A stretch of 42,720 bases of DNA, taken from positions 1 to 42,720 of the forward strand of contig NZ_JAFBDI010000020.1 of the NCBI RefSeq assembly GCF_016908145.1, written 5' to 3'. The DNA is from Marinitoga litoralis. GTDB lineage: Bacteria; Thermotogota; Thermotogae; Petrotogales; Petrotogaceae. Shown here in pieces: positions 12,161-42,720 of this stretch. The translations under genes and the position numbers were made by a program. A model generated the notes under the pieces. It did no database searches, was not told the DNA's origin, and was given only the letters and a program-made list of their open reading frames with translations. Numbering within the stretch: the first letter of the stretch is position 1; every line of letters begins with the position of its first letter.

Positions 12161-13027
12161 ATGATTACTTTTTCCTATGATTATGTTAAACCCAAAAACC
12201 TTGAAGAAGCGTTAGACATATTAGATCAAGAAAATGTTTATCCTATTTTAGGAGGAACTGATTTAATTGTAAAAATGAGAGCTGGTGTAATCAAACCCAA
12301 TTTAATAGTAGACTTGAAAAACATTGACGAGCTTTTTCATGTTGACTTTTCAAAGGAACATGGGTTAACCTTTGGTGCTGGGTTAAAGTTGAATGTTTTA
12401 ATTGAAGAATTTGATTATGTAAGAGAGTATTATCCAACATTATACCAAGGCATTCGTGTTGTTGGAGGTTATCAAACCAGGAATAGAGGTACTGTTGTAG
12501 GTAATATTTGTAATGCTTCACCTGCATCCGATACAGCTCCAGCATTATTGACTTATAATGCTGAATTAAACCTTGTTTCTAAAAGCGGAGAACGAACTGT
12601 AAAAATTACTGAATTTTTTAAGGGGCCTGGAAAAACAGTATTAGAAAAAGGAGAAATTGTAAAATCTATTCATATTCCTTTTGAAGGAGAAAGTATAGGA
12701 AGATATTATAAAATTTCAAGAATTAAAGCTGTTGATTTGGCAACAATAGGTATGGCTTTAACAATCATTGATCCTGAAGGAGCTAGAGACATTAGAGTTG
12801 CACTTGCATCAGTAGCTCCTACTCCTATAAGACTTTTTGAAGCGGAAGAATTTATTAAAGGTAAAGAATTAACCATGGAAAATGTAGAACAATTTGCTCA
12901 AATTATCCAAGATAGCGTTAATCCTATAACAGATGCTAGAGGAACAGCAGAATATAGAAAGAGAATGGCTAAAATATTACCTATTAAATTATTAAGAGAA
13001 ATGAATATGATAAAGGAGGGATTATAA
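12161..13027 (+). CDS. Molybdenum hydroxylase (xanthine dehydrogenase family), FAD-binding subunit
   Basis: A 288-residue medium subunit of a three-subunit xanthine-dehydrogenase-type enzyme. It carries electrons from the 2Fe-2S subunit to NAD or another acceptor. PILGGTDLIVKMR (about 28-40) and GNICNASPASDTAPALL (about 115-131) are the two FAD-binding signatures of this family. The C-terminal third has the CO-dehydrogenase-flavoprotein-like fold with VALASVAPTPIR. It is the first gene of the cluster, with a strong GGGGGG purine tract before the ATG at 12161. It overlaps the next gene by one base (TAATG), implying translational coupling. Whether the substrate is xanthine, uracil or another N-heterocycle cannot be read from this subunit. 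Confidence 0.93.
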   Translation: MITFSYDYVKPKNLEEALDILDQENVYPILGGTDLIVKMRAGVIKPNLIVDLKNIDELFHVDFSKEHGLTFGAGLKLNVLIEEFDYVREYYPTLYQGIRVVGGYQTRNRGTVVGNICNASPASDTAPALLTYNAELNLVSKSGERTVKITEFFKGPGKTVLEKGEIVKSIHIPFEGESIGRYYKISRIKAVDLATIGMALTIIDPEGARDIRVALASVAPTPIRLFEAEEFIKGKELTMENVEQFAQIIQDSVNPITDARGTAEYRKRMAKILPIKLLREMNMIKEGL

Positions 13028-13497
13028 TGAAAATTACTTTTACCGTAAATAATGAAAATGTAGAAGTGGATGTAAAACCAAATGAAACCCTCCTCGATGT
13101 ATTAAGAGAAAAATTATATTTAACAGGTGCTAAAGAAGGTTGCGGTAATGGGGAATGTGGTGCTTGTACTGTAATATATAATGGGCGACCTGTTAATTCA
13201 TGTTTAATATTAGCACCCGAAGCCGATGGATCTGTCATTGAAACTGTTGAAGGTTTAACAAAAGATAATAAATTACATCCCGTTCAAGAAGCTTTTGTTG
13301 AAGCAAATGCATTTCAATGTGGATATTGTACTCCTGGTTTTATTATGTCAACTAAAGCTATGTTAGAAAAAATACCAAATCCTACAAAAGATGTAATCGT
13401 TGAAAGACTAGCTGGAAATTTATGTAGGTGTACAGGTTATACTGTAATTTTAGATGCAGTAAAATTAGCTGCCCAGAAAATGGGAGGTGCAGAATAA
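13027..13497 (+). CDS. Molybdenum hydroxylase (xanthine dehydrogenase family), 2Fe-2S subunit
   Basis: A 156-residue small subunit with two [2Fe-2S] clusters. The plant-type cluster ligands are in GCGNGECGACTVIYNGRPVNSC (about 38-59). The second, helical-domain cluster is in CGYCTPGF and CRCTGY (about 98-140). The length and spacing are those of complete XdhC/CoxS-type subunits. The start ATG at 13027 overlaps the stop of the FAD subunit, and its own stop overlaps the ATG of the Mo subunit, both as TAATG. The three subunits are therefore probably made in equal amounts. Confidence 0.95.
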   Translation: MKITFTVNNENVEVDVKPNETLLDVLREKLYLTGAKEGCGNGECGACTVIYNGRPVNSCLILAPEADGSVIETVEGLTKDNKLHPVQEAFVEANAFQCGYCTPGFIMSTKAMLEKIPNPTKDVIVERLAGNLCRCTGYTVILDAVKLAAQKMGGAE

Positions 13498-15839
13498 TGA
13501 AATATAAATATCAATCACCAATTAAATTTGAATATGTAGGAAAACCCATGAATAGAGTAGACGCAATTGAAAAAGTAACTGGCCAAGCAAAATATGTAAC
13601 AGACATGTTCTTCCCAAATATGTTACACGCTGCTATAAAAAAGAGTCCTATACCTCATGGAATAATTAAAAAAATTGATACTTCAAAGGCTGAAAAATTA
13701 CCAGGTGTTAGAGCTATTGTTACTGGTAAAGATGTTCCATATAGACAAGGTATATATTTAGTAGATAGACCAATTATAACTCCTGATAGAGTTAGATATG
13801 TTGGAGAACCAGTTGCTGCTGTTGCTGCAGATTCATTGGATATCGCACGACAAGCTGTTGAATTAATAGAAGTTGAATATGAAGAACTTCCTGTAATTCA
13901 AGATCCTAGAGAAGCAATGAAAGGTGATGTTTTAATACATCCTGATTTAGCTAATTACGATAAATTACCTTTATATAATATTGAACCAGAAAAAAACGTT
14001 TTCCATCATCATAAAACCAGAAAAGGTGATGTTGAAAAAGGTTTTGCAGAGGCTGATATTATAGTAGAAAAAGAATATTCATTACCTCAAATGTACCACG
14101 CTCCACTAGAACCTCATGGTGCTATAGCTTTTTGGGACTATAATGAAAAATTAACAGTATACTCTTCTGCTCAATCTCCTTTCACTTTAAGAAATTTAAT
14201 AGCTCATGCTTTTAAACTACCAAGACATAAAGTTAGAGTTATTGCTCCTTATGTTGGTGGAGGGTTTGGCGCTAAAGCTGGAATTAATATGGAAGGTATT
14301 GTAATTGCTTTATCTGAAAAATTAAAAGGAAGATATATTAAATTAATATATACAAGGGAAGAAGATATTAGAGCTGTTGTTAGACAAGGTATGTATGCAA
14401 AAATTAAAACCGGCGTAAAAAAAGATGGAACTATAACTGCTATGGAAGCTACCCTAATTTTTGATGGTGGTGCTTATGCTGAATATGGAACAAATGTAGT
14501 TAGAGCCGCTGGTTATACATTACCAGGTTCAATATATGTTCCTAATTTAAAAACTGATTCATATGGTGTATATACAAACCATTTCTTAGGGGGAGCATTT
14601 AGAGGATTTGGTCATGGAGAACTTCATTGGGCAACAGAAAGAAATCTTGATGAAGTCGCTCAAGTATTAGGAATGGATCCAGTTGAACTACGTCTAAAAA
14701 ACTTACTTAAACCAGGTTTAACGAATTCAATGGGACAAACAATTCATCATGATACTGGAGATCCCGAAGCTTGTTTGAAAAAAGCTGCTGAATTAATAGA
14801 ATATGGCAAAAAAACAGAACCTAGTGGTCCTAGAAAAGTAAGAGGTAAAGGATTAGCTACTTTAGTAAAAGCTCCAGCTATGCCAACAAATGCGGGGTCT
14901 GCTGTAATTATAAAATTCCATGAAGATGCAACTGTTACCTTACAAGCAAGTATACAAGAAATTGGTCAAGGATTTAATACAGCTGTTGTTCAAATGGCTG
15001 CTGATGCTCTTCATATTTCACCAGATAAAATACATTTTGTAACTCCTAATGATACAGATGTAAATCCATATGAGTGGCAAACTGTTGCATCAAGAGCATT
15101 ATGGACAGTAGGTAATGCATTATATAGAGCTGCTGAGGATGCTTTAAATCAAATAAAAAATATTGCTTCTCAAGTTCTAGGTGTTGCTCCACATAACTTA
15201 GAAGTTGAAGATGACAGAGTGTTCGTTAAATATAGACCAGAAAAATTTATATTACTAAAAGATGTTGTAATGGGTTATACATATCCTGATGGACATGCTA
15301 TAGGTGGACCAGTTATTGGTAGAGGTAGTTTTGTTCCTGAAATGCTTACAAATCTTGATTTGGAAACTGGCCAAGGAAATGCCGCAGCTGAGTGGACTTT
15401 TGGTGCACAAGGTGCAGAAGTTGAAATAGACCTTGATACTGGTGAATTAAAAATAATTCAATTAGTCGGTGTTTTTGATGCTGGAACTATTATTAATCCT
15501 ATTACAGCAGGAGGACAAGTTGTGGGTGGAATGATTCAAGGTATGGGACCTGCAATTTTTGAAGGCATTAAATATAACGAAAAAGGATATCCTTTAACTG
15601 TATCATTTACTGATTATAAAATACCTACTATAGCTGATATACCAGATGATATTAAATATGATTTTGTTCAAACTTTTGAAGAATCATCACCATTTGGTGC
15701 TAAAGGTGTAGGAGAACATCCTATGATCTCAGTACCTCCAGCTATTGCATCTGCTATTTATGATGCCATAGGTGTAAATCTTAGAGAGTTACCTTTAACT
15801 GCAGATAAAATATTAAATGCTTTAGATAAAAAAAATTAA
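13497..15839 (+). CDS. Molybdenum hydroxylase (xanthine dehydrogenase family), molybdopterin-binding subunit
   Basis: A 780-residue catalytic subunit that inserts an oxygen from water into an N-heterocycle using a Mo-pterin cofactor. Visible motifs are YVGGGFGAKAG, the substrate-stabilising Arg in GAFRGFGHGE, LEPHG, the Gln of GQGFNT and the catalytic Glu of GAKGVGEHP. An upstream in-frame ATG at 13428 exists, but ATG at 13497 is chosen: it has GGGAGGTG at the right distance, forms TAATG with the previous stop, and starts the conserved KFEYVGKPMNRVDAIEKVTG region. The family is certain; substrate specificity is not. The adjacent UraA-type permease and AllFGH genes suggest a pyrimidine or purine ring. 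No cofactor-sulfurase/XdhC-type maturation gene is adjacent. Confidence 0.94.
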   Translation: MKYKYQSPIKFEYVGKPMNRVDAIEKVTGQAKYVTDMFFPNMLHAAIKKSPIPHGIIKKIDTSKAEKLPGVRAIVTGKDVPYRQGIYLVDRPIITPDRVRYVGEPVAAVAADSLDIARQAVELIEVEYEELPVIQDPREAMKGDVLIHPDLANYDKLPLYNIEPEKNVFHHHKTRKGDVEKGFAEADIIVEKEYSLPQMYHAPLEPHGAIAFWDYNEKLTVYSSAQSPFTLRNLIAHAFKLPRHKVRVIAPYVGGGFGAKAGINMEGIVIALSEKLKGRYIKLIYTREEDIRAVVRQGMYAKIKTGVKKDGTITAMEATLIFDGGAYAEYGTNVVRAAGYTLPGSIYVPNLKTDSYGVYTNHFLGGAFRGFGHGELHWATERNLDEVAQVLGMDPVELRLKNLLKPGLTNSMGQTIHHDTGDPEACLKKAAELIEYGKKTEPSGPRKVRGKGLATLVKAPAMPTNAGSAVIIKFHEDATVTLQASIQEIGQGFNTAVVQMAADALHISPDKIHFVTPNDTDVNPYEWQTVASRALWTVGNALYRAAEDALNQIKNIASQVLGVAPHNLEVEDDRVFVKYRPEKFILLKDVVMGYTYPDGHAIGGPVIGRGSFVPEMLTNLDLETGQGNAAAEWTFGAQGAEVEIDLDTGELKIIQLVGVFDAGTIINPITAGGQVVGGMIQGMGPAIFEGIKYNEKGYPLTVSFTDYKIPTIADIPDDIKYDFVQTFEESSPFGAKGVGEHPMISVPPAIASAIYDAIGVNLRELPLTADKILNALDKKN

Positions 15840-15875
15840 TTGTCTATCCAAATCTTATTTTAGGAGGGGAGAAAC

Positions 15876-17177
15876 ATGAGTGAAAGCGAATATTTGAATG
15901 TCGTGCCTCAAGAAGACAGAAGTGAAGGTATGAGTACAGGGGGATTAATATTATTAGGATTACAACACACCTTCACAATGTTTGGAGCAACAGTATTGGT
16001 ACCTTATTTAACAGGTATTCCAGTAAATGTAGCATTATTTACAGCCGGACTCGGAACATTATTATTCCACTGGATTACCAATTGGAAAGTACCAGTATTT
16101 TTAGGTTCTAGTTTTGCATATATTGCACCAATTATAGCAGTTACAATGCATTACATGAATGAAGCTGGTTTAAATTATGGAAGTATAAATGATGCGGTAG
16201 CAGCAGGTGTAGATTTAAGACCATATTTGGCATATGCAACAGGCGGAATATTCTTAGCTGGATTGGTTAAATTTGGTTTTGGTATATTGATAAAGTTTAT
16301 AGGTATTAGGAGATTCGAAAAATTATTCCCACCAGTAATATCAGGAACAATGATTATATTAATTGGTTTGATATTAAGTCCAGTAGCAATAAATATGGCA
16401 AGTGGAAATTGGTGGATAGCATTAGTATCATTATTTACAGCAGTAATAGTAAGATTATACACAAGAGGATTTAGTAGATTGATACCTGTTATTTGGGGGA
16501 TAATAGTAGGATATATAGTAGCAGCAATAACAGGAAATGTAAGTTTTGCAGAAGTAGGAACAGCAAGCTGGGTAGGAATGCCAGAATTATACTTACCAAA
16601 ATTCTCATGGTATGCAGCTGCAGCAATAATACCAGTTGCAATAGCACCATCAGTTGAACATTTTGGAGATGTATTTGCAATATCAGCAGTAGTTGGAAAA
16701 AAATTCTATGAAGATCCAGGAATGCACAGGACATTAATGGGAGATGGGCTTGCAACATCATTAGGAGGATTTTTAGGAGGACCTGCAAATACAACATATA
16801 GTGAAAACACAGGAGTATTAGCATTTACAAAAGCATTTAACCCATGGATAATGAGAATAGCAGCATTCTTTGCAATATTATTAGCATTAATACCTAAAGT
16901 AGGAGCAATAGTAAGATCAATACCAGTACCAGTAATGGGCGGAATAGAAATATTATTATTTGGAATGATAGCAAGTATAGGTGCAAAAACATTGATAAAC
17001 AACCAAGTAAAGGTAGAAGGAAAGAACTTAGTAACAATGTCATTGATGTTAGTAACAGGATTAGGTGGAGCAGTTTTCCAAGCTGGTAACTTTGCTTTAC
17101 AAGGTTTAGGTCTTGCTGCTGTTGTTGGTATTATCGTTAATGGTGTATTGACTTTAACAGGAGCTTCTGACGAATAA
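15876..17177 (+). CDS. NCS2-family nucleobase permease, UraA-like
   Basis: A 433-residue inner-membrane carrier, probably a proton symporter for a nucleobase, with hydrophobic segments throughout. GLQHTFTMFGATVLVP (about 28-43), SVEHFGD (about 260), DPGMHRTLMGDGLATSLGGF and GPANTTYSENTGV (about 308) match the UraA (uracil) branch more closely than the XanQ/PbuX purine branch. They include the two membrane-embedded Glu positions used for substrate binding. The start ATG at 15876 has AGGAGGGG upstream. The middle of the gene uses A-ending codons (GCA, ATA, GTA, GGA) almost exclusively, unlike its neighbours, and switches to GCT/GGT near 17070. It lies directly after the Mo hydroxylase, so it probably imports that enzyme's substrate. 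Confidence 0.92.
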   Translation: MSESEYLNVVPQEDRSEGMSTGGLILLGLQHTFTMFGATVLVPYLTGIPVNVALFTAGLGTLLFHWITNWKVPVFLGSSFAYIAPIIAVTMHYMNEAGLNYGSINDAVAAGVDLRPYLAYATGGIFLAGLVKFGFGILIKFIGIRRFEKLFPPVISGTMIILIGLILSPVAINMASGNWWIALVSLFTAVIVRLYTRGFSRLIPVIWGIIVGYIVAAITGNVSFAEVGTASWVGMPELYLPKFSWYAAAAIIPVAIAPSVEHFGDVFAISAVVGKKFYEDPGMHRTLMGDGLATSLGGFLGGPANTTYSENTGVLAFTKAFNPWIMRIAAFFAILLALIPKVGAIVRSIPVPVMGGIEILLFGMIASIGAKTLINNQVKVEGKNLVTMSLMLVTGLGGAVFQAGNFALQGLGLAAVVGIIVNGVLTLTGASDE

Positions 17178-17185
17178 GGTGAATA

Positions 17186-17857
17186 ATGATTGAAGTTTCA
17201 AAATTATTGTTTAATAAGGAAAATTTAATAGCTAAAGAATTTTTTAAAACAAAACATTCAAAGTATTTTGAATTTGATGATGGTGACATTTTTACTTTAA
17301 CCACTTATGAAAATAGGGTTGGGGCATTAGGAATGACCGCTCCCTCCCATTTTCTTAGATTTTCATCAATTAAATTAGAAAATAATAATTTGATTTTTGA
17401 TAATAATTATTTTTTAAGTAATTATACAATTTATGATCCAAGCATTTCGCATATATCATATTTTGATCCTTTAGATAAATATGTTAATTTGTTAAAAGAG
17501 AAAATTGATATTAGGATTTTTAATAAAATAATTTCTGCATTAAATGAACAAAAATATGATAATCTAATAGGTTTTGGACCTGGATTAACTCCATTATTTG
17601 ATGATATATTATCTGGAATATTGTTAATAAATTTCATAAAAAAATTATTTGATGCTTCATATATTCTTGAAAAAGCAAAATATAAAACAAACAAATTATC
17701 TTATTTCCAATTATATTATTCATCAAAAGGATATGCTCCAAAACCGGTTAAAGAATATTTAGAAAACGGGAATAGGGCTGCTTTGTTAAACATGGGGGAT
17801 ACATCAGGATTAGGCTGGATTATTGGTATTTCATTTTTCTTTGATTTGGAGGGATAA
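17186..17857 (+). CDS. DUF2877 protein, AllH-like subunit of a carbamoyltransferase
   Basis: A 223-residue cytoplasmic protein. GFGPGLTPLFDDILSG (about 128-143) and the C-terminal NMGDTSGLGWIIGI are the hallmarks of DUF2877. In E. coli the homologue (YlbF, now AllH) works with FdrA (AllF) and YlbE (AllG) in oxamate carbamoyltransferase, the phosphorolysis of oxalurate to oxamate and carbamoyl phosphate. The next two genes here encode exactly those partners. The ATG at 17186 has AAGGTG upstream and lies 8 bp after the permease stop. It carries the Shine-Dalgarno of fdrA in its final codons. The exact substrate in this organism is unknown. Confidence 0.85.
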   Translation: MIEVSKLLFNKENLIAKEFFKTKHSKYFEFDDGDIFTLTTYENRVGALGMTAPSHFLRFSSIKLENNNLIFDNNYFLSNYTIYDPSISHISYFDPLDKYVNLLKEKIDIRIFNKIISALNEQKYDNLIGFGPGLTPLFDDILSGILLINFIKKLFDASYILEKAKYKTNKLSYFQLYYSSKGYAPKPVKEYLENGNRAALLNMGDTSGLGWIIGISFFFDLEG

Positions 17858-17859
17858 AT

Positions 17860-19401
17860 GTGGTTTATAAATTGATTAAACCAAATTCGTATTATGATTC
17901 AGTTACACTTATGCTTATTACAGAAGATATCAAAAAACGTGATGAAGTAGAAGAAGCGTTAGTAGGAATGGGAACAGATACAAATAAAGAATTTTTAAAA
18001 GAATTAGACATGATTGATGAGGAATTAGAAAAAACTACCCCTAATGATTTATTAATAGTTATAAAAGGGGAAAATATAAACTTGGAAGAAATAGAAAAAG
18101 AAATAGAAAAATTATTGAAAGCCGAAGCTGAGGAAGAAGAAGGAGAAAAATTCTATCCTTCACTCGATAGTGCTGTAAAAAAATTAGATGGCGCAAATAT
18201 GGCCGTAATATCTATAGCTGGCGAATACGCTGGATTTGAAACAAAAAAAGCTTTAGATTACGGATTAAATGTAATGCTTTTTAGTGACAATGTCCCTTTA
18301 GAAACAGAGATAGAATTGAAAAAATATGCATTAGAAAAAGGATTATTAGTTATGGGACCTGATTGTGGAACAGCTATTATAAATGGAGTCCCTATGGCAT
18401 TTTCAAATGTTGTAAAAAGAGGGAAGATTGGTATAGTCGCAGCTTCAGGAACTGGTGCTCAAGAAGTTTCATCAATAATTTCCAATCTCGGTTGTGGGAT
18501 TTCACAATTAATAGGTACTGGCGGTAGAGATGTAAAAAAAGATGTTGGTGGATTAATGTTCTTGGAAGGAATTAGAAGGCTTATTGAAGATGACGAAACA
18601 GATATTATTGTTTTAGTATCAAAACCTCCTTATCCCGAAGTAGTTAAAAAAGCAACAGAATTATTGAATAAAACAAATAAAAAACATGTTGTTCATTTTG
18701 TAAATGGTGTAGTTGAAGATCCCACTATTACTGTTGGTTATACTTTAGAAGATGCCGCAATAAAAGCTGCATTATTATGTCAAGGAAAAGAGATAGAAAA
18801 AGATATATATACATATTTTGATTTCTTAGAATCATTTGATTTTGAATCAAAAGTAAAAGAAGAAGCTGCAAAAATCAAAGAAGGTAAATATATAAGAGGG
18901 TTATATTCTGGTGGCACTTTAGCTGATGAAACAATGGTGTTATTATCAAAAGAAATTGGACCTATTTATTCACCGGCACCTCTTGATCCAAAATATAAAT
19001 TGGAAAACATAAATTCAAGTAAAGAAAACACTGTTGTTGATATGGGAGAAGATGAATTTACTGTAGGAAGACCACATCCAATGATTGACTTTACTATGAG
19101 AAAATCTAGATTAATAAAAGAATATTTAGATAAAGATACTGCAATAATAATGGTTGATGTTGTATTAGGTTGGGGATCTCACATGGATCCTGCTGGAGAA
19201 ATCGCAGAAGCCGTAAGGGCTGCACGTGAAACTTCAGATAATTATCGATGTATTATAGCTAATATTTGTGGAACATATGAAGATCCACAAAAATATTATG
19301 AACAAAAGAAAAAGCTGGAAGATGAAGGCGTAATTGTCTTCCCAAGCAATGCAAGTGCAGTTAAATTTGCAGTTAATGTTTGGAAGGAGTTGGGAAGATG
19401 A
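17860..19401 (+). CDS. fdrA: FdrA/AllF-like subunit of a carbamoyltransferase
   Basis: A 513-residue protein of the FdrA family, built like the alpha subunit of succinyl-CoA synthetase. It has GKIGIVAASGTGAQEVSSII, LIGTGGRDVKKDVGG, a repeated second half beginning YIRGLYSGGTLADE, and HPMIDFTMRKSRL. The family is often annotated acyl-CoA synthetase, but in E. coli it is part of the AllFGH oxamate carbamoyltransferase. The start is GTG at 17860, with GGAGGG seven bases upstream, overlapping an out-of-frame ATG at 17858. Residues about 75-95 form an extra Glu/Lys-rich linker. The stop overlaps the ATG of the next gene (ATGA), so production is coupled. Confidence 0.92.
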   Translation: MVYKLIKPNSYYDSVTLMLITEDIKKRDEVEEALVGMGTDTNKEFLKELDMIDEELEKTTPNDLLIVIKGENINLEEIEKEIEKLLKAEAEEEEGEKFYPSLDSAVKKLDGANMAVISIAGEYAGFETKKALDYGLNVMLFSDNVPLETEIELKKYALEKGLLVMGPDCGTAIINGVPMAFSNVVKRGKIGIVAASGTGAQEVSSIISNLGCGISQLIGTGGRDVKKDVGGLMFLEGIRRLIEDDETDIIVLVSKPPYPEVVKKATELLNKTNKKHVVHFVNGVVEDPTITVGYTLEDAAIKAALLCQGKEIEKDIYTYFDFLESFDFESKVKEEAAKIKEGKYIRGLYSGGTLADETMVLLSKEIGPIYSPAPLDPKYKLENINSSKENTVVDMGEDEFTVGRPHPMIDFTMRKSRLIKEYLDKDTAIIMVDVVLGWGSHMDPAGEIAEAVRAARETSDNYRCIIANICGTYEDPQKYYEQKKKLEDEGVIVFPSNASAVKFAVNVWKELGR

Positions 19402-20801
19402 GTTTATTCAAAGAAGAATTAAAAATAGTTAATATTGGTTTAAAATCATTCTATGAAGATTTAAAAAAACAAGGGGCTAATGTTGTTCATGTTGATTGGA
19501 AACCTCCTCTTGGAGGGTCAAAAGCTTTAAAAATATTAAATGATTTTAATATGTTAAATATTGATGTTGATGCAGCAAACAAAGAAGCTGTTGAACGAAT
19601 CATGAATTCTCAACCAACTCTTGTTGGCATGGGAATAGCTAGGGATGTTGTTCCTGGTATGAAAGATAACATGATTTTACATGCAGGACCACCAATTACA
19701 TGGGATAGAATGTGCGGTCCATTAAAAGGTGCTGTTATTGGTGGATTAATATATGAAGGAAAAGCTAAAGATGAAAAAGAAGCTATTGAATTAATAGAAT
19801 CTGGTGAAATAGAATTTGACCCTTGGCATCATCACTATGGTGTTGGACCAATGGCTGGTGTAGCAACTCCATCAATGCCTGTATTTATAATAGAAAATAA
19901 AACATATGGAATTAAATCATATTGTACTATGAATGAAGGTTTAGGTAAAGTTTTAAGATATGGTGCAAATGGTCCTGATGTAATTGCTAGATTAAAATGG
20001 ATGGAAGAAGTTTTATATCCAGTATTGAAAGAGGCTATTGAATTAAAAGGTGAAATTAATTTAAAGAATTTAATTGCTCAAGCTGTACAAATGGGTGATG
20101 AATGTCATAATAGGAATAGAGCAGCAACTTCATTATTCATAAGGGAAATAGCTCCTGCTATATTAGATACTAGTTTTTCAAATAAAGAAAAGAAAGAAGT
20201 TATTGAATTTATTAATTCCAATGACCATTTCTTCTTAAATTTATCAATGCCAGCTGCTAAATCAGCTACATTAGCTGCCGAAGGTATTAAAGGAAGTACA
20301 ATAGTTACTGTAATGGCTAGAAATGGTACAGATTTTGGAATTAGATTAGCCGGATTACCCGAACAATGGTTTGTCGGCCCAGCACAAGATGTCGATGGAT
20401 TATACTTCCCAGGATTCACAAAGGAAGATGCAAATCCAGATATTGGTGATAGTACTATAACAGAAACAGGTGGTTTTGGTGGTTTTGCAATGGCTGGTGC
20501 TCCAGCAATAGTTAAATTTGTTGGAGGTACTGTTCAAGAAGCTATTGAAACTACATTAAAAATGTATGAAATAACAGATGCTGAAAACAATACATATAAA
20601 ATACCATTTTTAAACTTTAGAGGAACACCTACAGGTTTAAATGTAAAGAAAGTTGTTGAAAAAGGTATACTACCAAGAATTAACACTGGTATTGCCCATA
20701 AAGAACCAGGTATAGGTCAGGTTGGAGCAGGTTTAACCTATCCACCTATGAATATATTTATCGATGCATTAGAGGCATTTGTAAAAACTTATTTAGATTA
20801 A
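19398..20801 (+). CDS. DUF1116 protein, AllG (YlbE)-like subunit of a carbamoyltransferase
   Basis: A 467-residue DUF1116 protein, with HVDWKPPLGG near the N-terminus, GPPITWDRMCGPLKGA, GDECHNRNRAATSLF and ARNGTDFGIRL. E. coli YlbE (AllG) is the counterpart and acts with AllF and AllH. An in-frame GTG-type start six codons upstream (19380) is possible. I prefer ATG at 19398, because it overlaps the fdrA stop as ATGA and has AAGGAG/GGGAAG just upstream. All three transcarbamoylase-type subunits are present and adjacent, so the complex is probably functional. No carbamate kinase gene, which would convert carbamoyl phosphate to ATP, is in the window. Confidence 0.9.
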   Translation: MSLFKEELKIVNIGLKSFYEDLKKQGANVVHVDWKPPLGGSKALKILNDFNMLNIDVDAANKEAVERIMNSQPTLVGMGIARDVVPGMKDNMILHAGPPITWDRMCGPLKGAVIGGLIYEGKAKDEKEAIELIESGEIEFDPWHHHYGVGPMAGVATPSMPVFIIENKTYGIKSYCTMNEGLGKVLRYGANGPDVIARLKWMEEVLYPVLKEAIELKGEINLKNLIAQAVQMGDECHNRNRAATSLFIREIAPAILDTSFSNKEKKEVIEFINSNDHFFLNLSMPAAKSATLAAEGIKGSTIVTVMARNGTDFGIRLAGLPEQWFVGPAQDVDGLYFPGFTKEDANPDIGDSTITETGGFGGFAMAGAPAIVKFVGGTVQEAIETTLKMYEITDAENNTYKIPFLNFRGTPTGLNVKKVVEKGILPRINTGIAHKEPGIGQVGAGLTYPPMNIFIDALEAFVKTYLD

Positions 20802-20813
20802 GGGGGGAACATT

Positions 20814-21605
20814 ATGGCAGGTATTAAAGTGTATGATTTAACTCAAAAGATTGGTATTACAACACCACCTTGGCCAGGTTATGAGCCAATGAAATTATGG
20901 TATTTTAAAAGAATGATGCTTCAAAAAGTTAACGGACAAATTGTTCAAACAAGCATGCATAACGGAACACATTTAGATGGTCAAAGACATTTCATGACAG
21001 GTGGAAGAGATATTGCATCATTGCCATTAGATGGTTATTTATTCCATGAAGGTGTAATTTTAGATATATCTAAAGAAGTTGGAGACTTTGATATTTATAC
21101 TCCTGATACATTATTAAAAGTCGCTAAAGAAAACAATCTTGAAATTAAAAAAGGTGACATTTTAATTATTAATACTGGTTATCACAAATATGCTTGGGAT
21201 CAACCAGAAGCTAATGAAAATAAATATTATTATTTCCATCCAGGACCAGATCAAAGATTTGCTGATTGGTTAAAAGAAATGGAAATTAAATGGGTAGGTG
21301 TTGACTGCGGTTCTGCAGATCATCCAATGAATACTATATTAAGAGAGTATAGACCTGAATTTGCTGCAATGGCAGATAAACATTTTAGAGAAAAATATGG
21401 AAAATCTCTTGATGAATATTTTGATGATAAAACATATCAATTAATGCATATTGATTTATTCCCACATTTAATTCTTCATGCAGAAAATCTTGGTGGAGAA
21501 ATTGATAAAGTATTAAACAGAAGAATGTACATTGGTATATTCCCATGGAAATTGGTTGATGGTGAATCAAGTATTGCTCGTGTTGCTGCATTTGAAATTG
21601 AATAA
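20814..21605 (+). CDS. Cyclase-family metal-dependent amide hydrolase
   Basis: A 263-residue member of the cyclase family (kynurenine formamidase / isatin hydrolase fold). The metal site HNGTHLDGQRH at residues 49-59 (His49, His53, Asp55, His59) is intact, as are TPPWPG near the N-terminus and the family's ENL motif (HAENLGGEIDKV) near the C-terminus. Members hydrolyse linear or cyclic amides with a divalent metal. Downstream of a ring-hydroxylating Mo enzyme and an AllFGH set, a ring-opening role on a cyclic imide is a reasonable inference, not a demonstrated one. AGGGGGG precedes the ATG at 20814, and the gene lies 12 bp after AllG. Confidence 0.88.
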   Translation: MAGIKVYDLTQKIGITTPPWPGYEPMKLWYFKRMMLQKVNGQIVQTSMHNGTHLDGQRHFMTGGRDIASLPLDGYLFHEGVILDISKEVGDFDIYTPDTLLKVAKENNLEIKKGDILIINTGYHKYAWDQPEANENKYYYFHPGPDQRFADWLKEMEIKWVGVDCGSADHPMNTILREYRPEFAAMADKHFREKYGKSLDEYFDDKTYQLMHIDLFPHLILHAENLGGEIDKVLNRRMYIGIFPWKLVDGESSIARVAAFEIE

Positions 21606-21632
21606 TAATATATTTAAAGGGGGAACTTAATT

Positions 21633-22355
21633 ATGTGGAAAGAAATACCAGAAAAAGTATCACAAGAAAAAATAACTTTTGATGTAAGAGAATTAGAACC
21701 TTTATTATCAGGTCCATCATTAAAGTTACCACCATATGAACCTGAAATGGCTAAATTAAAAGATGGTAGTTATTTATATATAAGACCTTTAGAAAAAGAT
21801 GAAGTTCCAAAATTGTTACCATTTATAAAGAAATTATTAGATGTAGATCATGATTTTTACGACATAGTTGGAGTAAGAGTTTACGGAGAATTATTAGGTT
21901 GGTATAGAAATAGATTAAAGGATCCATATTTTATGATTGGTACAATTAATGGAAAATTAGCAGGATTTGCTAATGCAAGAGTTATGAATAATGGTATTCA
22001 TATAAGTCTTCATTCAATGGCATTTGTTAGAGGCTTAAGAGTTGGAGCTATTATGTATTATGCAAAGGCTAAATATGCATTTGAAAAACTAGGTGCAAAA
22101 GAATGGTGGGCTACATATGAAAGTTATAATGGATTTAAGAGATGGGGATTAGGTATGGCACAACCATCATATCCATGGCCAGATGTACAACATGAACTCG
22201 GTGGCGCAAAAGTCTATTATGTTACAAGAGAATATTGGGATCTTTCAATAAAAGATTACTTACAACAATTAGTAAAAACCGAACTCGAACCAGCTAGCGC
22301 TGAAGTTGCTGAAGCAAATAAAGAATTAATAATTCCAGACAGTCCCGTTGTTTAA
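21633..22355 (+). CDS. GNAT-like acetyltransferase, last gene of the catabolic cluster
   Basis: A 240-residue cytoplasmic protein. Residues about 45-165 have a GNAT pattern: YLYIRPLEKDEVPKL at the start, YFMIGTINGKLAGFANARV as central strands, and RGLRVGAIMYYAKAKYAFEKLGAKEWWATYE as the acetyl-CoA loop and helix. The first 45 residues and the Ala/Glu-rich tail are not part of the core fold. The substrate is unknown, and GNAT proteins are not part of known allantoin or pyrimidine routes. GGGGG precedes the ATG at 21633. The strong palindromic terminator follows within 10 bp, marking the end of the transcription unit. Confidence 0.75.
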   Translation: MWKEIPEKVSQEKITFDVRELEPLLSGPSLKLPPYEPEMAKLKDGSYLYIRPLEKDEVPKLLPFIKKLLDVDHDFYDIVGVRVYGELLGWYRNRLKDPYFMIGTINGKLAGFANARVMNNGIHISLHSMAFVRGLRVGAIMYYAKAKYAFEKLGAKEWWATYESYNGFKRWGLGMAQPSYPWPDVQHELGGAKVYYVTREYWDLSIKDYLQQLVKTELEPASAEVAEANKELIIPDSPVV

Positions 22356-33192: not shown

Positions 33193-34425
33193 TTAAAATT
33201 TAGAACTTGAATTTATATAAAAATAAAAGTTTTCAAAGTCATTTTCAAAATCATGTCCTAATTTAAATATCAATGAAATATCATCTTTTATCAACCCATA
33301 TCCAATTCTGTATCCAATATTATTCAAATTATCATAATATAAGTCTAATAAAACTTTTGATTTTTCAGAAATGCTTAAATTTAAATTAGATTCAATATCA
33401 TATATGTTATTACTAATATTATAATTTCCTGAAATTAGAAAAATATTATTATAATTTCCAGTTAAAGATATATCCTTATTGATAAAATTATATACACCTT
33501 TTATAGATATATTCTCATTATTAAAATCTGAAACAATATATTCTAATTTATCTGTATATTTACCTTCAAGACCTATCCCATTTACTTCTAATCTGCTGTA
33601 AATACTCATTGAAGAATATTTTGTTTCCGGAGTAAATAGTACATTAAAATAAGAATTATTAAATAATACTCTACTTGAAACATAATAATTTAAATTATTA
33701 TTGATAGAAATTAAATCAATACCAACATCTATAAATTTACTTTTATAAACTCCAAAAAATCCAGAATTATTTTCTTCTATATTTTCATTAAAATTAATTA
33801 ATTCATTTGAGGCTTTGTTTTTGTAAATACCAAATTCGAAATCAGAATTTTCCCATATTACTTTTAAAGATTCTAATCCAAATTGCCAATTAGAATTATC
33901 CGCATTTAAAACAGCTTCAAAATTCATCCCTGATTTGTTGGGAGTAATGATTAAATTAAATTTTTGCGAAATTTCTGGAGTCTTTAATGAATAAGTATCA
34001 ATATCTACTTTAGACTTTAAATCAAATGAATATGTACCACTCAAAATACCACTTTTTTGTTTTTCTGGTTTTTTTATTTTTAATACCCCATTTTCCAAAA
34101 TTAATGTAAAGGTCCCGTTTTTACCTCCATACCCATCTGGAACATAATCCGGAGCTTCTGGGTCTTCTTTCCAGTCAGTACCATTAACCACAAATTTATA
34201 TTGATAATCACCAGGTGCTAATTTCATGGAAACTTTCCATATACCATTCATTTTTTTCATAGGCAAAGCGCTAGGATCCCAATTATTAAAAGACCCTGCT
34301 AAAAACACTTTTGATGCTGTAATATCTTTATATTCAAAAACCACCTCATTATTATAAACATATACTTTTGCAAAAGAAATTATTGATAACATTAATACAA
34401 TTAATATTATAATATTTTTTTTCAT
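33193..34425 (-). CDS. Secreted CBM48-like carbohydrate-binding protein with a C-terminal beta-barrel-like region
   Basis: A 410-residue exported protein. The signal peptide (about 1-19, MKKNIIILIVLMLSIISFA) is followed by a compact CBM48/AMPK-type glycogen-binding domain (about 28-115). It contains VFLAGSFNNWDPSALPM, GIWKVSMKLAPGDYQYKFVV and DWKEDPEAPDYVPDGYGGKNG, with the conserved Trp and Lys of alpha-glucan binding. Residues about 130-410 are a run of short alternating beta strands rich in Asn, Ser and Tyr, ending in an aromatic Phe. That suggests an outer-membrane barrel. GAGGTG precedes the ATG at 34425. It is the last gene of a unit with another barrel protein and lipoproteins. Starch or glycogen binding follows from the domain family; the barrel is inference. 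Confidence 0.82.
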   Translation of the reverse strand: MKKNIIILIVLMLSIISFAKVYVYNNEVVFEYKDITASKVFLAGSFNNWDPSALPMKKMNGIWKVSMKLAPGDYQYKFVVNGTDWKEDPEAPDYVPDGYGGKNGTFTLILENGVLKIKKPEKQKSGILSGTYSFDLKSKVDIDTYSLKTPEISQKFNLIITPNKSGMNFEAVLNADNSNWQFGLESLKVIWENSDFEFGIYKNKASNELINFNENIEENNSGFFGVYKSKFIDVGIDLISINNNLNYYVSSRVLFNNSYFNVLFTPETKYSSMSIYSRLEVNGIGLEGKYTDKLEYIVSDFNNENISIKGVYNFINKDISLTGNYNNIFLISGNYNISNNIYDIESNLNLSISEKSKVLLDLYYDNLNNIGYRIGYGLIKDDISLIFKLGHDFENDFENFYFYINSSSKF

Positions 34426-34437
34426 TTAATACACCTC

Positions 34438-35808
34438 CTAAAATCCTGTTCTAACTGTTAAAGAGAATTGCTTTTTGAACTCTTTAGATGCTCCAAAATT
34501 TCCGTCTCCTAAACTTAATAATAATTCCACATTAGAAAATCCTGTATACTTAGCCTCTGCATACATAGTCTTATACCTTTCTATTACACCGTATATATAC
34601 ATTCCTTTCCAAAATAAGTTTAAATTTCCAAAAGATTTTGACAATGTGCCATAAAATACTTCAGAAAAGCCCCCATTATAAACAGTAGAGTTTTCTATAT
34701 TAACTTCATTATTCCCAAAAATATATGATAGATTATAATAATATCCAAGCACATTTCCATTTATATTTGAAGAAATAGAAAATGGTTTATACCTTTTTAT
34801 GTTTTTCCAATCATCTTCTAATCCATATTTATAAAACGAAATATTCACATTTCCTAATAACGGAATATTCAAAGGATAATTAATAGAAAATTCTAAATCA
34901 GTAAAGTTATATTTATTATTTTCAAAAGGGATTCCTATATAAACATAATTATAATTATTTAATGAAAAATAGCTTTTTAAGTAATCTAATGAAAAATTAG
35001 AAAAGTTATCATCTTGATAATTACCTTCTAATGTAATTCCTAATTTATCAAAGTTAAATTCATTTCTAATACTTTTTGAAAAACTATCTGGTAAATAATC
35101 ATTATTATATCCTGAAGCTAAATACTTTATATACAATGAATTATGAATATTACCAAAATTAACTTTATTTCCAAGAAAAATTAAATAGTTATTATCTAAA
35201 TAATTTTCTCCTTTATCATATGAATATCCAAATTCGCCGAACATTTGATTATTAACTAGATTTAAGTTAAAATCAAACAATCTCCAATCAGAATAAATAT
35301 ATTTTGTATAAAATTCTCTTGAATATATATAACTATAATAGAAATTTCCTAAAGGAATTCCTCTTATATGTGAAATAAAAAGAGAAGAAGAACCTCCATC
35401 TTTTTTTACTAAATAATTATCAATATGAATTAATGGCAAATCCAAAGTATATTCAACACCATTAACGGCGCCTATTTTTTCATTATTAAAGGCATTTATC
35501 CAATCTGTAGTATTTACACTTTTCTTTTTCCAAAATGTTTTAAAATTATTTGAATCAAATTTAAATTCAAAAATTCCATCTGTTATGTAATATTTATCGT
35601 CACTTCCCTTATTTAAATTCAATTCTCCAGAAAAATTTGAATTATTTGGTTTGATATATAAGTCTAATTTTAAACCATTATAATAAAATTGAGCAGGAGA
35701 TGATTCTAATGTATAGGTCCATGAAGTTTCTAAATTACCATTTATCTGTACATCTGAAAAAACAAAAACTGAAATAATTATCATTAAAAGTATCATTAAC
35801 TTTTTCAT
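34438..35808 (-). CDS. Putative outer-membrane (toga) beta-barrel protein
   Basis: A 456-residue protein with a signal peptide (MKKLMILLMIIISVFVFS) and a mature part of repeated amphipathic beta strands with many Tyr, Asn and Phe. It ends QFSLTVRTGF. The terminal Phe with alternating hydrophobic residues is the usual recognition signal for barrel insertion by BamA. No known porin family is recognised. The ATG at 35808 overlaps the stop of the upstream gene (ATGA), so it is translationally coupled, and a CBM48-like protein follows 12 bp downstream. The neighbours suggest it lets glycans through, or displays binding proteins on, the toga. That role is inferred. Confidence 0.75.
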   Translation of the reverse strand: MKKLMILLMIIISVFVFSDVQINGNLETSWTYTLESSPAQFYYNGLKLDLYIKPNNSNFSGELNLNKGSDDKYYITDGIFEFKFDSNNFKTFWKKKSVNTTDWINAFNNEKIGAVNGVEYTLDLPLIHIDNYLVKKDGGSSSLFISHIRGIPLGNFYYSYIYSREFYTKYIYSDWRLFDFNLNLVNNQMFGEFGYSYDKGENYLDNNYLIFLGNKVNFGNIHNSLYIKYLASGYNNDYLPDSFSKSIRNEFNFDKLGITLEGNYQDDNFSNFSLDYLKSYFSLNNYNYVYIGIPFENNKYNFTDLEFSINYPLNIPLLGNVNISFYKYGLEDDWKNIKRYKPFSISSNINGNVLGYYYNLSYIFGNNEVNIENSTVYNGGFSEVFYGTLSKSFGNLNLFWKGMYIYGVIERYKTMYAEAKYTGFSNVELLLSLGDGNFGASKEFKKQFSLTVRTGF

Positions 35809-36347
35809 TGAGAATCACCAACCTTCAATTCCTCAATCTCTATATAGCTTATCATAGGATAAAATTTTATTTTAAATCCATTAACATTATTTTTAAATGT
35901 ATATATTTGATTTTGGGATGAATCGGAATATACTTCGCCATTAAAGATTGCTTGCCAAGGTTTCCATGTTGTTGACGCTGGTATCTTATATTCAATATTT
36001 TCTCCTTTATTATATGAATTATCTATTTCTATTTCAAAATGATCGTTAACTTTATTCATCTTTTCAGGAGACCAATTATTAAATGTACCTGCTGCATACC
36101 AATCCATATTTAATTTTGTATCATCACCAACACCAATTGCTTTACCGCTAGTAAGTTTATCAATATCCAAATATACTGTTATTTGATTATTTGACAAAGA
36201 AGATTTTAAAACTGGAATAGAATCAGAAACTATATTACCATCATTTTTTACATAAAATACCTTATAATAACCTATATAAAATTTACTACCTTCATTATCT
36301 ATTTCATTGAAATTCATTTTTGATGCGTCTATAGTAACTTTATACAA
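35805..36347 (-). CDS. C-terminal part of a lipoprotein with CBM48-like domain, split by an in-frame TAA
   Basis: A 180-codon open frame starting at a TTG (36347) with no Shine-Dalgarno and no signal sequence. It continues in the same frame as the short lipoprotein ORF directly upstream, separated only by a TAA (36351-36353) and one Lys codon. WYAAGTFNNWSPEKM (residues about 83-97) and the following strands with WKPWQAIF resemble a CBM48 glycogen-binding domain, like the one encoded at 33193-34425. The joined product would be a lipoprotein of about 240 residues. As read here, the gene is either a nonsense mutant or affected by a sequencing error. Its stop overlaps the ATG of the barrel gene, so read-through would matter for that gene's translation. 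Confidence 0.7.
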   Translation of the reverse strand: MYKVTIDASKMNFNEIDNEGSKFYIGYYKVFYVKNDGNIVSDSIPVLKSSLSNNQITVYLDIDKLTSGKAIGVGDDTKLNMDWYAAGTFNNWSPEKMNKVNDHFEIEIDNSYNKGENIEYKIPASTTWKPWQAIFNGEVYSDSSQNQIYTFKNNVNGFKIKFYPMISYIEIEELKVGDSQ

Positions 36348-36350
36348 TTT

Positions 36351-36536
36351 TTAATTTTCATCATATATAAGCTTACTATTTTCAATAGTATTAATATCAT
36401 CTGTTTGTAACCAATTATTCCCATCATATCCAACATATATACCTTCTGGAACAGATAAATTTAATAATTTCATCATACATCCTGAAAAAATTAACACTGA
36501 AGAAATTATTAAAATCAATAATACAATCTTTTTCAA
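36351..36536 (-). CDS. N-terminal part of the split lipoprotein (signal peptide and lipobox)
   Basis: A short frame encoding MKKIVLLILIISSVLIFSGC followed by an N-terminal glycan-binding-like segment (EGIYVGYDGNNWLQTDD). The lipobox is IFSGC, with the Cys as the lipidation site. Of three possible starts I choose TTG at 36536: GGAGGTGAT (36541-36549) lies four bases upstream, the same arrangement as in infB, and the ATG at 36542 overlaps that site. The frame ends at TAA 36351-36353, after which the same frame continues for 180 codons. The sequence around the stop (KLIYDEN, stop, KLYKVTIDASKM) aligns with an uninterrupted segment of the lipoprotein at 36591-38504. One original gene is therefore the simplest reading. 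Confidence 0.7.
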   Translation of the reverse strand: MKKIVLLILIISSVLIFSGCMMKLLNLSVPEGIYVGYDGNNWLQTDDINTIENSKLIYDEN

Positions 36537-36561
36537 AAACATCACCTCCACTCTTTTAAAA

Positions 36562-36585
36562 ATCCCACCTCAAAAGAGGTGGGAT
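36562..36585 (-). terminator. Internal terminator in the glycan-binding locus
   Basis: ATCCCACCTC (36562-36571) and GAGGTGGGAT (36576-36585) form a 10-bp stem with a 4-nt loop. On the minus strand it is followed by TTTTTAAAAG. It lies 5 bp after the first lipoprotein gene and about 13 bp before the Shine-Dalgarno of the next. It probably makes the first gene's transcript more abundant than the downstream ones. Confidence 0.8.
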
Positions 36586-36590
36586 GATGA

Positions 36591-38504
36591 TCATTGAATA
36601 GTATGTTCTGTCATATTAATTATTGTTATTGGAACATTCCAATCCCAATTATCCGGATATGGATTATCTGGTGCTGTATCTGAAGATGATGAATCATCAC
36701 TACTTCCGACTATAGTACCTACAAATTTAATTTTATCTCCAATACTTAATCCTAAATCTGATAATTTTATTTTAACTTCCATTATAGGATCTGTATTATT
36801 CTTTAATACTATATAATCATCATGTTGTGTCTTGGTTGTAGTGTTATCAACAGTCCATAATTGTGGATCTTGATGTTCCCAAGCCGCTACAAAGAAATGA
36901 ATTGGTGTTCCATCTTGTGTTTGTATAGCTCTTGACCAACCACCAAAATGCATATCAGTAGCTCCGCCTGTTTCTCCTTCTTTAGAGAAATAAATTATAA
37001 ATCCATTTCCAGATGCTTTATAATTTGCAGCTACGTATAAATATTCATCATCATTAGCTATGCCTACCCAATTTACATCATTTGTATCTCCCCATATACT
37101 ATCATTTGTCGCATCTATTGTTATAGTTTTTGTTGCATAATCTGTCCATTCACTTAAATCTCCATCTATAATTATTTGCCCAGGAGCTGCTATATCGTTT
37201 TCATCTCTTGGAACAACTTTTAATTGGTCATAATTATACATTACTACTCCTACAATATTATATTCTGCCCCGACTTCAAAAGTTGTAGATGTATAATTTT
37301 TAACTACTATTGTTGCACCATTAGATAAGAAAGATGCATTACCAAATCCATCATTTGCTACTGTACATTCTCCATTAAATTTTACTAATTTTCCATAATA
37401 ATTCCAATTATCTTTAATTTCATCTCCTGTTATATCCTCTAGTAATAATTCTATATTTGATTTTAAAACAGTTACTGAAGCAGCATTGTTTATATTATAC
37501 TCATAAACCTTAGTTGTTTTAGAATTATTTTCATAATATTTAGCTTCTCCTTCTACATATACTAAATCTCCAATTTTCAAATCAGAAATGTTAAATGGTT
37601 TATATATTTCTATTCCTCTTGTCCCATCTTGTATAAATACGTATGTATTATAAACATAATTTACTACACCTACTGAAGAAGATTCAATGGTATTATTCTC
37701 TGCTGTATCAATTGAATCAATAACTTCAGAAATACTTGGTAATTCTTCTAAAGGTTCTACTACAACCTTTGAATAATGAGGATCAAAAGATACTCTTGCA
37801 CCCATTGTGTATTTTCCTTCAGTAAATGCCATTGTGTTATTCCCTGTACCGTAATAATGATTTTCTGAGAATAAAAATGGATTTTCTTCAGCATTTTGTG
37901 GCCAGTGGTTAAGACCAATTCCAATCTTAAATTCCATAGGATTTTCTGGACCAAAAATTGTTTTTGTAGATTTTTCAGTTTCATATACACCATTAGTCAT
38001 TTCAACAAAATTCCATTCTGTTGGGGATCCTACAAAATATATTGGAGAAGCATCTTTTGTATTATCTCCCATAACCCCTGCTATTGTCTTATGATCTGAT
38101 GTATTATCTGCAGAAGGATCAAAATAGAAAATTACTTTATCCATATTTTCTACCACATCTGGATCTATTGGAACACTAGGGTCAAATTCTCCAAATCCTC
38201 CATATGCAACTGATCCATCATCAGTGATTTGAACAACTTTCCACCACCAAACTTTTTCATTATTAGTTGGCGCTGGAACATTTTCTATTAAGTCCAATGC
38301 AGGAATCTCCAACTGATATTTCCCATCATCCTGTTGAATAAATTTCCAATCTGGAATTAAATCAAAATTCCATTCGCTATTAGAAAAATAAAGATAATAA
38401 CCATTCTCAAGAGTCATTTCATCTTGAGGTTTTGGTTTAGGTAAACAACTTACCAACAATAATGATAATAAAATAATACTAAAAATTAAGAAACCTTTCC
38501 TCAT
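36591..38504 (-). CDS. Surface lipoprotein with glycan-binding-like and OB-fold-like domains
   Basis: A 637-residue lipoprotein. The signal peptide ends LLLVSC, with Cys20 as the lipid anchor. An N-terminal pair of beta domains follows; FVGSPTEWNFVEM resembles the strand-loop of CBM48/SusE-like domains. Next come two OB-fold-like segments (about 265-450; TYVFIQDGTRGIEIYKP, DLKIGDLVYVEGEAKYY). The C-terminal DOMON/CBM9-like domain (about 455-620) begins IIIDGDLSEWTDY, a layout seen as accessory modules in amylopullulanases and glucodextranases. The frame is open to 38564, but ATG at 38504 with GAGGGGGTG upstream starts the signal peptide. It is the first gene of the locus. Glycan binding is inferred from domain resemblance. 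Confidence 0.78.
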   Translation of the reverse strand: MRKGFLIFSIILLSLLLVSCLPKPKPQDEMTLENGYYLYFSNSEWNFDLIPDWKFIQQDDGKYQLEIPALDLIENVPAPTNNEKVWWWKVVQITDDGSVAYGGFGEFDPSVPIDPDVVENMDKVIFYFDPSADNTSDHKTIAGVMGDNTKDASPIYFVGSPTEWNFVEMTNGVYETEKSTKTIFGPENPMEFKIGIGLNHWPQNAEENPFLFSENHYYGTGNNTMAFTEGKYTMGARVSFDPHYSKVVVEPLEELPSISEVIDSIDTAENNTIESSSVGVVNYVYNTYVFIQDGTRGIEIYKPFNISDLKIGDLVYVEGEAKYYENNSKTTKVYEYNINNAASVTVLKSNIELLLEDITGDEIKDNWNYYGKLVKFNGECTVANDGFGNASFLSNGATIVVKNYTSTTFEVGAEYNIVGVVMYNYDQLKVVPRDENDIAAPGQIIIDGDLSEWTDYATKTITIDATNDSIWGDTNDVNWVGIANDDEYLYVAANYKASGNGFIIYFSKEGETGGATDMHFGGWSRAIQTQDGTPIHFFVAAWEHQDPQLWTVDNTTTKTQHDDYIVLKNNTDPIMEVKIKLSDLGLSIGDKIKFVGTIVGSSDDSSSSDTAPDNPYPDNWDWNVPITIINMTEHTIQ

Positions 38505-42338: not shown

Positions 42339-42720
42339 TTATTGATTATTACTATCATCCTTTAAAAACACCATTTTTTTAGAAGATTGAGATAATTCAA
42401 CAGGATTATAGGATGAATTATTTTTAAGCATATAATAAATACTTCTAACTAGTTTTCTAGCAGTTAAAACAACAGCAGCTTTGTGAGATTTACCTTGATC
42501 CCTTTTCTTTTTGTAATAAGATTTAAGAACAGGATCATACCTAATAGCACAAGAAGCTGCCTGATATAGATAATATCTTAGATATTTATTTCCTTTTTTT
42601 GATAAATTTTTGTGATTATCAGTTTTTTTACCAGAATCATTTAAATCCCAACGTAATCCTGCATAAGAAGATAATTTAGAATCAGATGCGAAATTATCAA
42701 TATTAATAATTTCAGAAATA
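42339..42720 (-). CDS. IS110-family transposase, C-terminal part (runs off the window)
   Basis: An open frame of 126 codons on the minus strand, continuing past the right edge and stopping at TAA 42339-42341. It contains NFASDSKLSSYAGL with the nucleophilic Ser region, RWDLNDSGKK, NLSKKGNKYLRYYLYQAA and HKAAVVLTARKLVRSIYYML. This is the Transposase_20 domain of IS110/IS1111/IS116 elements. Those DEDD-Ser recombinases act with a non-coding bridge RNA encoded next to the gene. The N-terminal RuvC-like domain is outside the window, so completeness is unknown. Confidence 0.9.
   Translation of the reverse strand, partial: ISEIINIDNFASDSKLSSYAGLRWDLNDSGKKTDNHKNLSKKGNKYLRYYLYQAASCAIRYDPVLKSYYKKKRDQGKSHKAAVVLTARKLVRSIYYMLKNNSSYNPVELSQSSKKMVFLKDDSNNQ

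Follow-up and report, generated by a model that had tools for sequence, protein, structure and literature searches.

A probable outer-membrane module for starch or maltodextrin uptake in Marinitoga, with a predicted beta-barrel fused to a CBM48 domain

Introduction

How do fragments of starch cross the outer sheath of Thermotogota? Known toga proteins are few (OmpA1, OmpB, AmyA and XynA in Thermotoga maritima), and in the literature searched no proteins have been assigned to this passage. The question is raised here by four adjacent genes of a bacterium of the genus Marinitoga (phylum Thermotogota; genome of 2.29 Mb). They lie on its contig C20, a stretch of 42,720 nucleotides that was analysed whole and is called the window below. 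A first-pass annotation had proposed a toga-level alpha-glucan capture locus resembling a SusD/SusE-like system and knew of no description of such a layout. In this work we report predicted folds, domains, selection and gene neighborhood at this locus, and name three conserved candidates, found in laboratory strains of Thermotoga as well, for the passage of starch fragments across the outer sheath.

Results

Organization of the locus

The four genes span positions 38504-33193 on the minus strand in the order P4, P3, P2, P1, and the coordinates annotated earlier, the start coordinate included, were correct for 4 of 4 genes. P4 (36591..38504; ATG at 38504, stop at 36591) encodes a lipoprotein of 637 aa with the lipobox LLVSC. 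Between P4 and P3 lies an intercistronic hairpin (36561..36585, minus strand) that folds into a terminator-like 10-pair stem; hairpins are found at the same place in the sister loci L029 and L028, and this element possibly sets the lipoprotein:barrel ratio. P3 (35805..36542) encodes a two-domain, glucan-binding-like lipoprotein (lipobox IFSGC) with an in-frame TAA at 36353-36351, in agreement with the earlier description of two lipoproteins, one of them broken. P2 (34438..35808) encodes a predicted outer-membrane beta-barrel with a signal peptide, a C-terminal Phe and no plug domain. Its start lies within the stop of P3 (ATGA), and 4-bp overlaps of P3 and P2 are seen in Marinitoga. The product of P1 (33193..34425) consists of a signal peptide, a CBM48/AMPK1_CBM domain (34072..34371; residues 19-118) and a predicted C-terminal beta-barrel ending in Phe (33196..34044; residues 128-410). 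A terminator hairpin with a T run folds 3' of P1 (33155..33180, minus strand; -15.5 kcal/mol). The promoter scan of this AT-rich DNA gave a site count about equal to that of shuffled sequences and was left unused.

Two predicted outer-membrane barrels

Both P1 and P2 combine a signal peptide, a predicted membrane barrel and an aromatic C-terminal residue, the features looked for in an outer-membrane barrel. AlphaFold placed about 24-26 strands after the signal peptide of P2 (pLDDT 81.5) and, in P1 (pLDDT 89.3), the CBM and then ~20 strands, a barrel whose confidence values mostly exceed 90; the Foldseek TM-scores were low (0.2-0.5), which makes strand number and barrel size uncertain for both proteins. 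Among the PDB matches listed by Foldseek for P2, 50 of 50 were outer-membrane barrels, and those listed for P1 were outer-membrane barrels (porins, Occ channels, AlgE, and LptD) and the AMPK beta subunit. P2 had no family match in Pfam, and a PDB sequence search with it returned nothing credible. In the loci read, the C-terminal residue is Phe in all P1 homologues and Phe or Trp in nearly all P2 homologues. Profile comparison aligned the N-terminal part of the P1 barrel with the P2 barrel over ~93 columns (probability 93.6, E = 2e-7), and the two barrels are probably paralogues. Fold prediction had been suggested in the first-pass annotation as a check; it returned barrels for both proteins and bore out the reading of P2 as a barrel-like protein with a C-terminal Phe and of P1 as a CBM48 protein with a barrel-like C-terminus. 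In the homologous locus of Marinitoga lauensis (L032), P2 and IF-2 are both frame-split (9864-11239 and 12931-15104), apparently through sequencing error, not gene loss.

The CBM48 domain of P1

P1 scored above the curated Pfam cut-offs for AMPK1_CBM (E = 1.2e-12, 48.3 bits vs. 26.8) and CBM_48 (E = 9.7e-9, 35.9 bits vs. 22.4), and its profile matched AMPK beta at 2e-11 and a GH13 pullulanase at 1e-15. Residues W49, K77, W85, and N103 of P1 align with the W, K, W, and N of AMPK beta1, which we take to be the glycogen (sugar) contact residues, and they are invariant in 33 homologues. The domain resembles the AMPK-beta glycogen-binding domain/CBM48 in its profile match and its conserved contact residues, but differs in being exported and in belonging to an outer-membrane barrel protein rather than to a kinase subunit or GH13 enzyme.

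An outer-membrane barrel whose strand number is even has both termini in the periplasm, and the known N-terminal extensions of barrels (plug, POTRA, the coiled coil of ScrY, OmpM1) are periplasmic as well. Because the CBM48 is an N-terminal domain on such a barrel, it should face the periplasm, at the inner barrel mouth, and it more likely holds dextrins that are already inside than starch outside. Tandem CBM48 domains were also seen in other proteins of f10 genomes (L055-L057: G056 C1:843656-844375, G054 C3:157681-158400, and G060 C15:2946-3656), one of them in a 1266-aa frame. Their best copy shares 50-55% identity with the P1 CBM, and the P1-type CBM seems common to several exported proteins.

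Lipoproteins P3 and P4

The TAA is the only stop in P3, and the reading frame is open from there to the gene end. Sister genomes carry intact copies with frames of 247-262 aa, and no such in-frame stop was found in the other homologous loci read. The dN/dS of P3 3' of the stop, against two relatives, was 0.08-0.11, like or below that of P2 (0.13-0.14), which points to either a very recent nonsense change or a sequencing error. A functionless pseudogene was considered as well, but the part beyond the stop shows no relaxed selection. The FNNW motif of CBM48 type, reported earlier for at least two proteins, is present in P1 (GSFNNWDP) and P3 (GTFNNWSP). Residues W160, K189, and W196 of P3 (L029 numbering) are invariant in 31 homologues, and by inspection we read them as counterparts of the W, K, and W of AMPK beta. 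Profile similarity of P3 to solved glucan-binding proteins was weak (AMPK beta E = 0.14; SusF E = 0.92). A search of the genome contigs with the P3 profile, using a single strict pattern, found six loci, all in Thermotogota. In other Thermotogota (G021 C1:936336, G040 C69:63059, G057 C1:68530, and G059 C16:18634), P3-like domains form part of frames 2100-2900 aa long, which are possibly giant exported glucan-processing proteins.

By inspection, P4 comprises two E-set-like N-terminal repeats, an OB-like middle part and a CBM9-like C-terminal domain. Its Pfam matches to OB domains and its similarity to solved glucan-binding proteins were weak, and a PDB sequence search gave nothing credible. Orthologues of P4 occur in three Marinitoga genomes and in f10 genomes. 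The slot before P3 is variable: besides P4-type lipoproteins it can hold one with an AMPK1_CBM domain, which takes the place of P4 in two sister genomes, or yet another lipoprotein. At four loci of Thermosipho type (L040, L121, L122, and L124), an SNase-domain protein and OB-fold or DUF5689-type lipoproteins lie upstream of the cassette; these genes are perhaps a nucleic-acid utilization set.

Conservation and gene neighborhood

The P2 profile matched 34 of 103 Thermotogota genomes. One match (G011) was marginal, covering 33 residues, and was left out, so the cassette was counted in 33 of 103 genomes; by the same search it is absent from one Marinitoga (G005) and from many Thermotogota. In each of the 32 homologous loci read besides the window, P3, P2, and P1 follow one another directly and in this order. 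Such a fixed order is far beyond chance, and on this ground we rejected the idea that unrelated secreted proteins had come together by accident.

Of the 32 loci, 18 (families f1, f10, and f11) have a GH13 amylase gene directly upstream. By our own estimate, based on some 12 GH13 genes in a genome of this size, roughly 2% of loci would be expected to have such a gene no more than three genes away. A lipoprotein signal was found in 10 of 10 upstream amylases inspected; the amylase of one genome is split over two frames. Six Thermotoga-type genomes of family f11 share the gene order malEFG (divergent), amyA, lipoprotein, P3, P2, P1, pullulanase, WD40 protein and ROK regulator. MalE of these loci shows no difference from T. 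maritima MalE2 (6dts), and the amylase almost none from 5m99 (AmyA); the CBM41 of 2j71 is part of the pullulanase. The gene order fits the TM1839-TM1845 region of T. maritima (PMC2246101), and we identified the region as such because of the MalE2 and AmyA matches and this published description.

Judged by sequence and order, P3-P2-P1 are the orthologues of TM1842-TM1844, which have been named as ORFs of the mal2/amyA region (PMC2246101). That paper was the only relevant one found when the full text of papers outside subscription was searched for TM1841-TM1844, and no function is assigned to TM1842-TM1844 in the literature searched. Six porin candidates have been listed for T. maritima (TM0153, TM0354, TM0476, TM0639, TM0642, and TM1274), and TM1843 and TM1844 are not among them (PMC3387000). 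AmyA (TM1840) is a demonstrated toga protein (PMC3387000). The set in the window is the same system in another family of the phylum. The first-pass annotation knew of no described case of this layout; the layout is not unique to the window but is the form that the mal2/amyA region of T. maritima takes in Thermotogota. The set in the window differs in that Marinitoga has no adjoining malEFG2, amyA or pulA, and P1 carries one CBM48 copy instead of the three in Thermotoga.

Comparison with known systems

No match to SusD (PF07980) or to the TonB plug of SusC (PF07715) was found in the genome, while the Bacteroides control for the former and the control genomes for the latter were positive; no surface amylase (SusG) is encoded in the window. 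The reported lack of SusC and SusD was thus confirmed, and membership in the Sus family of systems was ruled out by the absence of both protein families. The proposed SusD/SusE-like resemblance survives in outline: as in Bacteroides SusCDEFG, there are lipoproteins with glucan-binding-like domains, a predicted outer-membrane passage, a variable slot for an accessory lipoprotein and, in the loci of relatives, a lipoprotein amylase. Unlike Sus, the Marinitoga set has plugless barrels and a CBM fused to a barrel. At the level of sequence, the likeness of P3 to SusE/SusF is only suggestive.

Maltoporins (LamB/ScrY) were also considered and rejected, since neither P2 nor the P1 barrel had a Pfam porin match. 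Like them, the barrels would form an outer-membrane sugar pore, but with ~20 (P1) and 24-26 (P2) predicted strands vs. the 18 of the trimeric maltoporins. ScrY, too, has an N-terminal periplasmic extension, a coiled coil; P1 has a CBM48 there.

Discussion

Taken together, it is quite probable that P3-P2-P1 with P4 form the outer-membrane module of a Thermotogota system for starch/maltodextrin uptake; pore function, sidedness, ligand and the division of labor between P1 and P2 are what we infer. The lipoproteins P4 and P3, with the lipoprotein alpha-amylase in relatives, would hold and nick starch or glycogen on the toga; these surface steps are proposed because of the known location of AmyA and the synteny. 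Long malto-oligosaccharides would then diffuse through the outer sheath by way of P2, a large plugless barrel acting as a wide passive pore. P1 may be another pore; its CBM48, standing at the inner mouth, would bind incoming dextrins as a glucan sink and keep them for pullulanase in the periplasm and for the maltose ABC transporter, which would finish the work. Somewhat short of an even chance, in our judgment, is the more specific proposal of TonB-independent uptake on two related plugless barrels, in which the CBM48 sink at the periplasmic mouth makes the diffusion of long dextrins directional.

The first-pass reading of toga-level alpha-glucan capture is well supported by the computed folds, lipoprotein signals and CBMs and by the synteny in relatives. 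One part of it has to be moved: the CBM of P1 is expected on the inside, which leaves surface capture to P3, P4, and the amylase. This bears on the strongest alternative, in which P1 and P2 are adhesin-like structural anchors that only attach the cell to granules of starch or to glycogen outside it and pass no sugar, while uptake proceeds via general porins. T. maritima does have a general porin, OmpB (PMC3387000). Adhesion could be explained by the CBMs and lipoproteins alone, but an N-terminal CBM facing the periplasm would be useless for it, the barrels are large and plugless as fits a channel, and two related barrels lie between the amylase and pullulanase genes; we regard anchoring as improbable.

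Still less probable is that the cassette serves the envelope of the cell itself or an exported polysaccharide, in which case it would bind or export a self-made alpha-glucan (capsule or exported glycogen) and import no food. AlgE, a polysaccharide exporter, is among the Foldseek matches of P1, and the neighbors of the four-gene set in the window, IF-2 and an enolase-superfamily gene, are not catabolic; in relatives, however, the genes linked to the cassette serve degradation and import (amyA, pulA, malEFG2), not synthesis. Equally doubtful is a drift of the Marinitoga cassette from starch to another glucan, e.g., pullulan or trehalose-containing oligosaccharides. Marinitoga lacks the linked amylase, and the CBM evolves more slowly (dN/dS 0.16-0.22) than P1 taken whole (0.24-0.28). 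Against this, the contact residues of the CBM are still invariant, and the Marinitoga genome retains, away from the cassette, genes for two exported GH13 proteins, one of them pullulanase-like.

As proposed, the module would bring about surface glycan capture and outer-membrane passage by unassigned protein families, including a fusion of barrel and CBM48. If the uptake proposal is true, a deep-branching phylum has solved surface feeding on starch without TonB-dependent SusCD, and a porin-CBM fusion would join the known designs. On the more specific, directional reading, the fusion would be a new kind of sugar porin, in a functional Sus counterpart that has no SusC/SusD.

Elsewhere in the window, at 12161-22355, genes for a xanthine-dehydrogenase-like enzyme of three subunits, a purine-type permease and FdrA-like proteins stand in a row, as judged by eye from the translations; this suggests a purine or allantoin-type catabolism, which would be unusual in a sugar fermenter. 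A transposase fragment, IS110-like by eye, occupies 42339-42719 and runs off the contig end.
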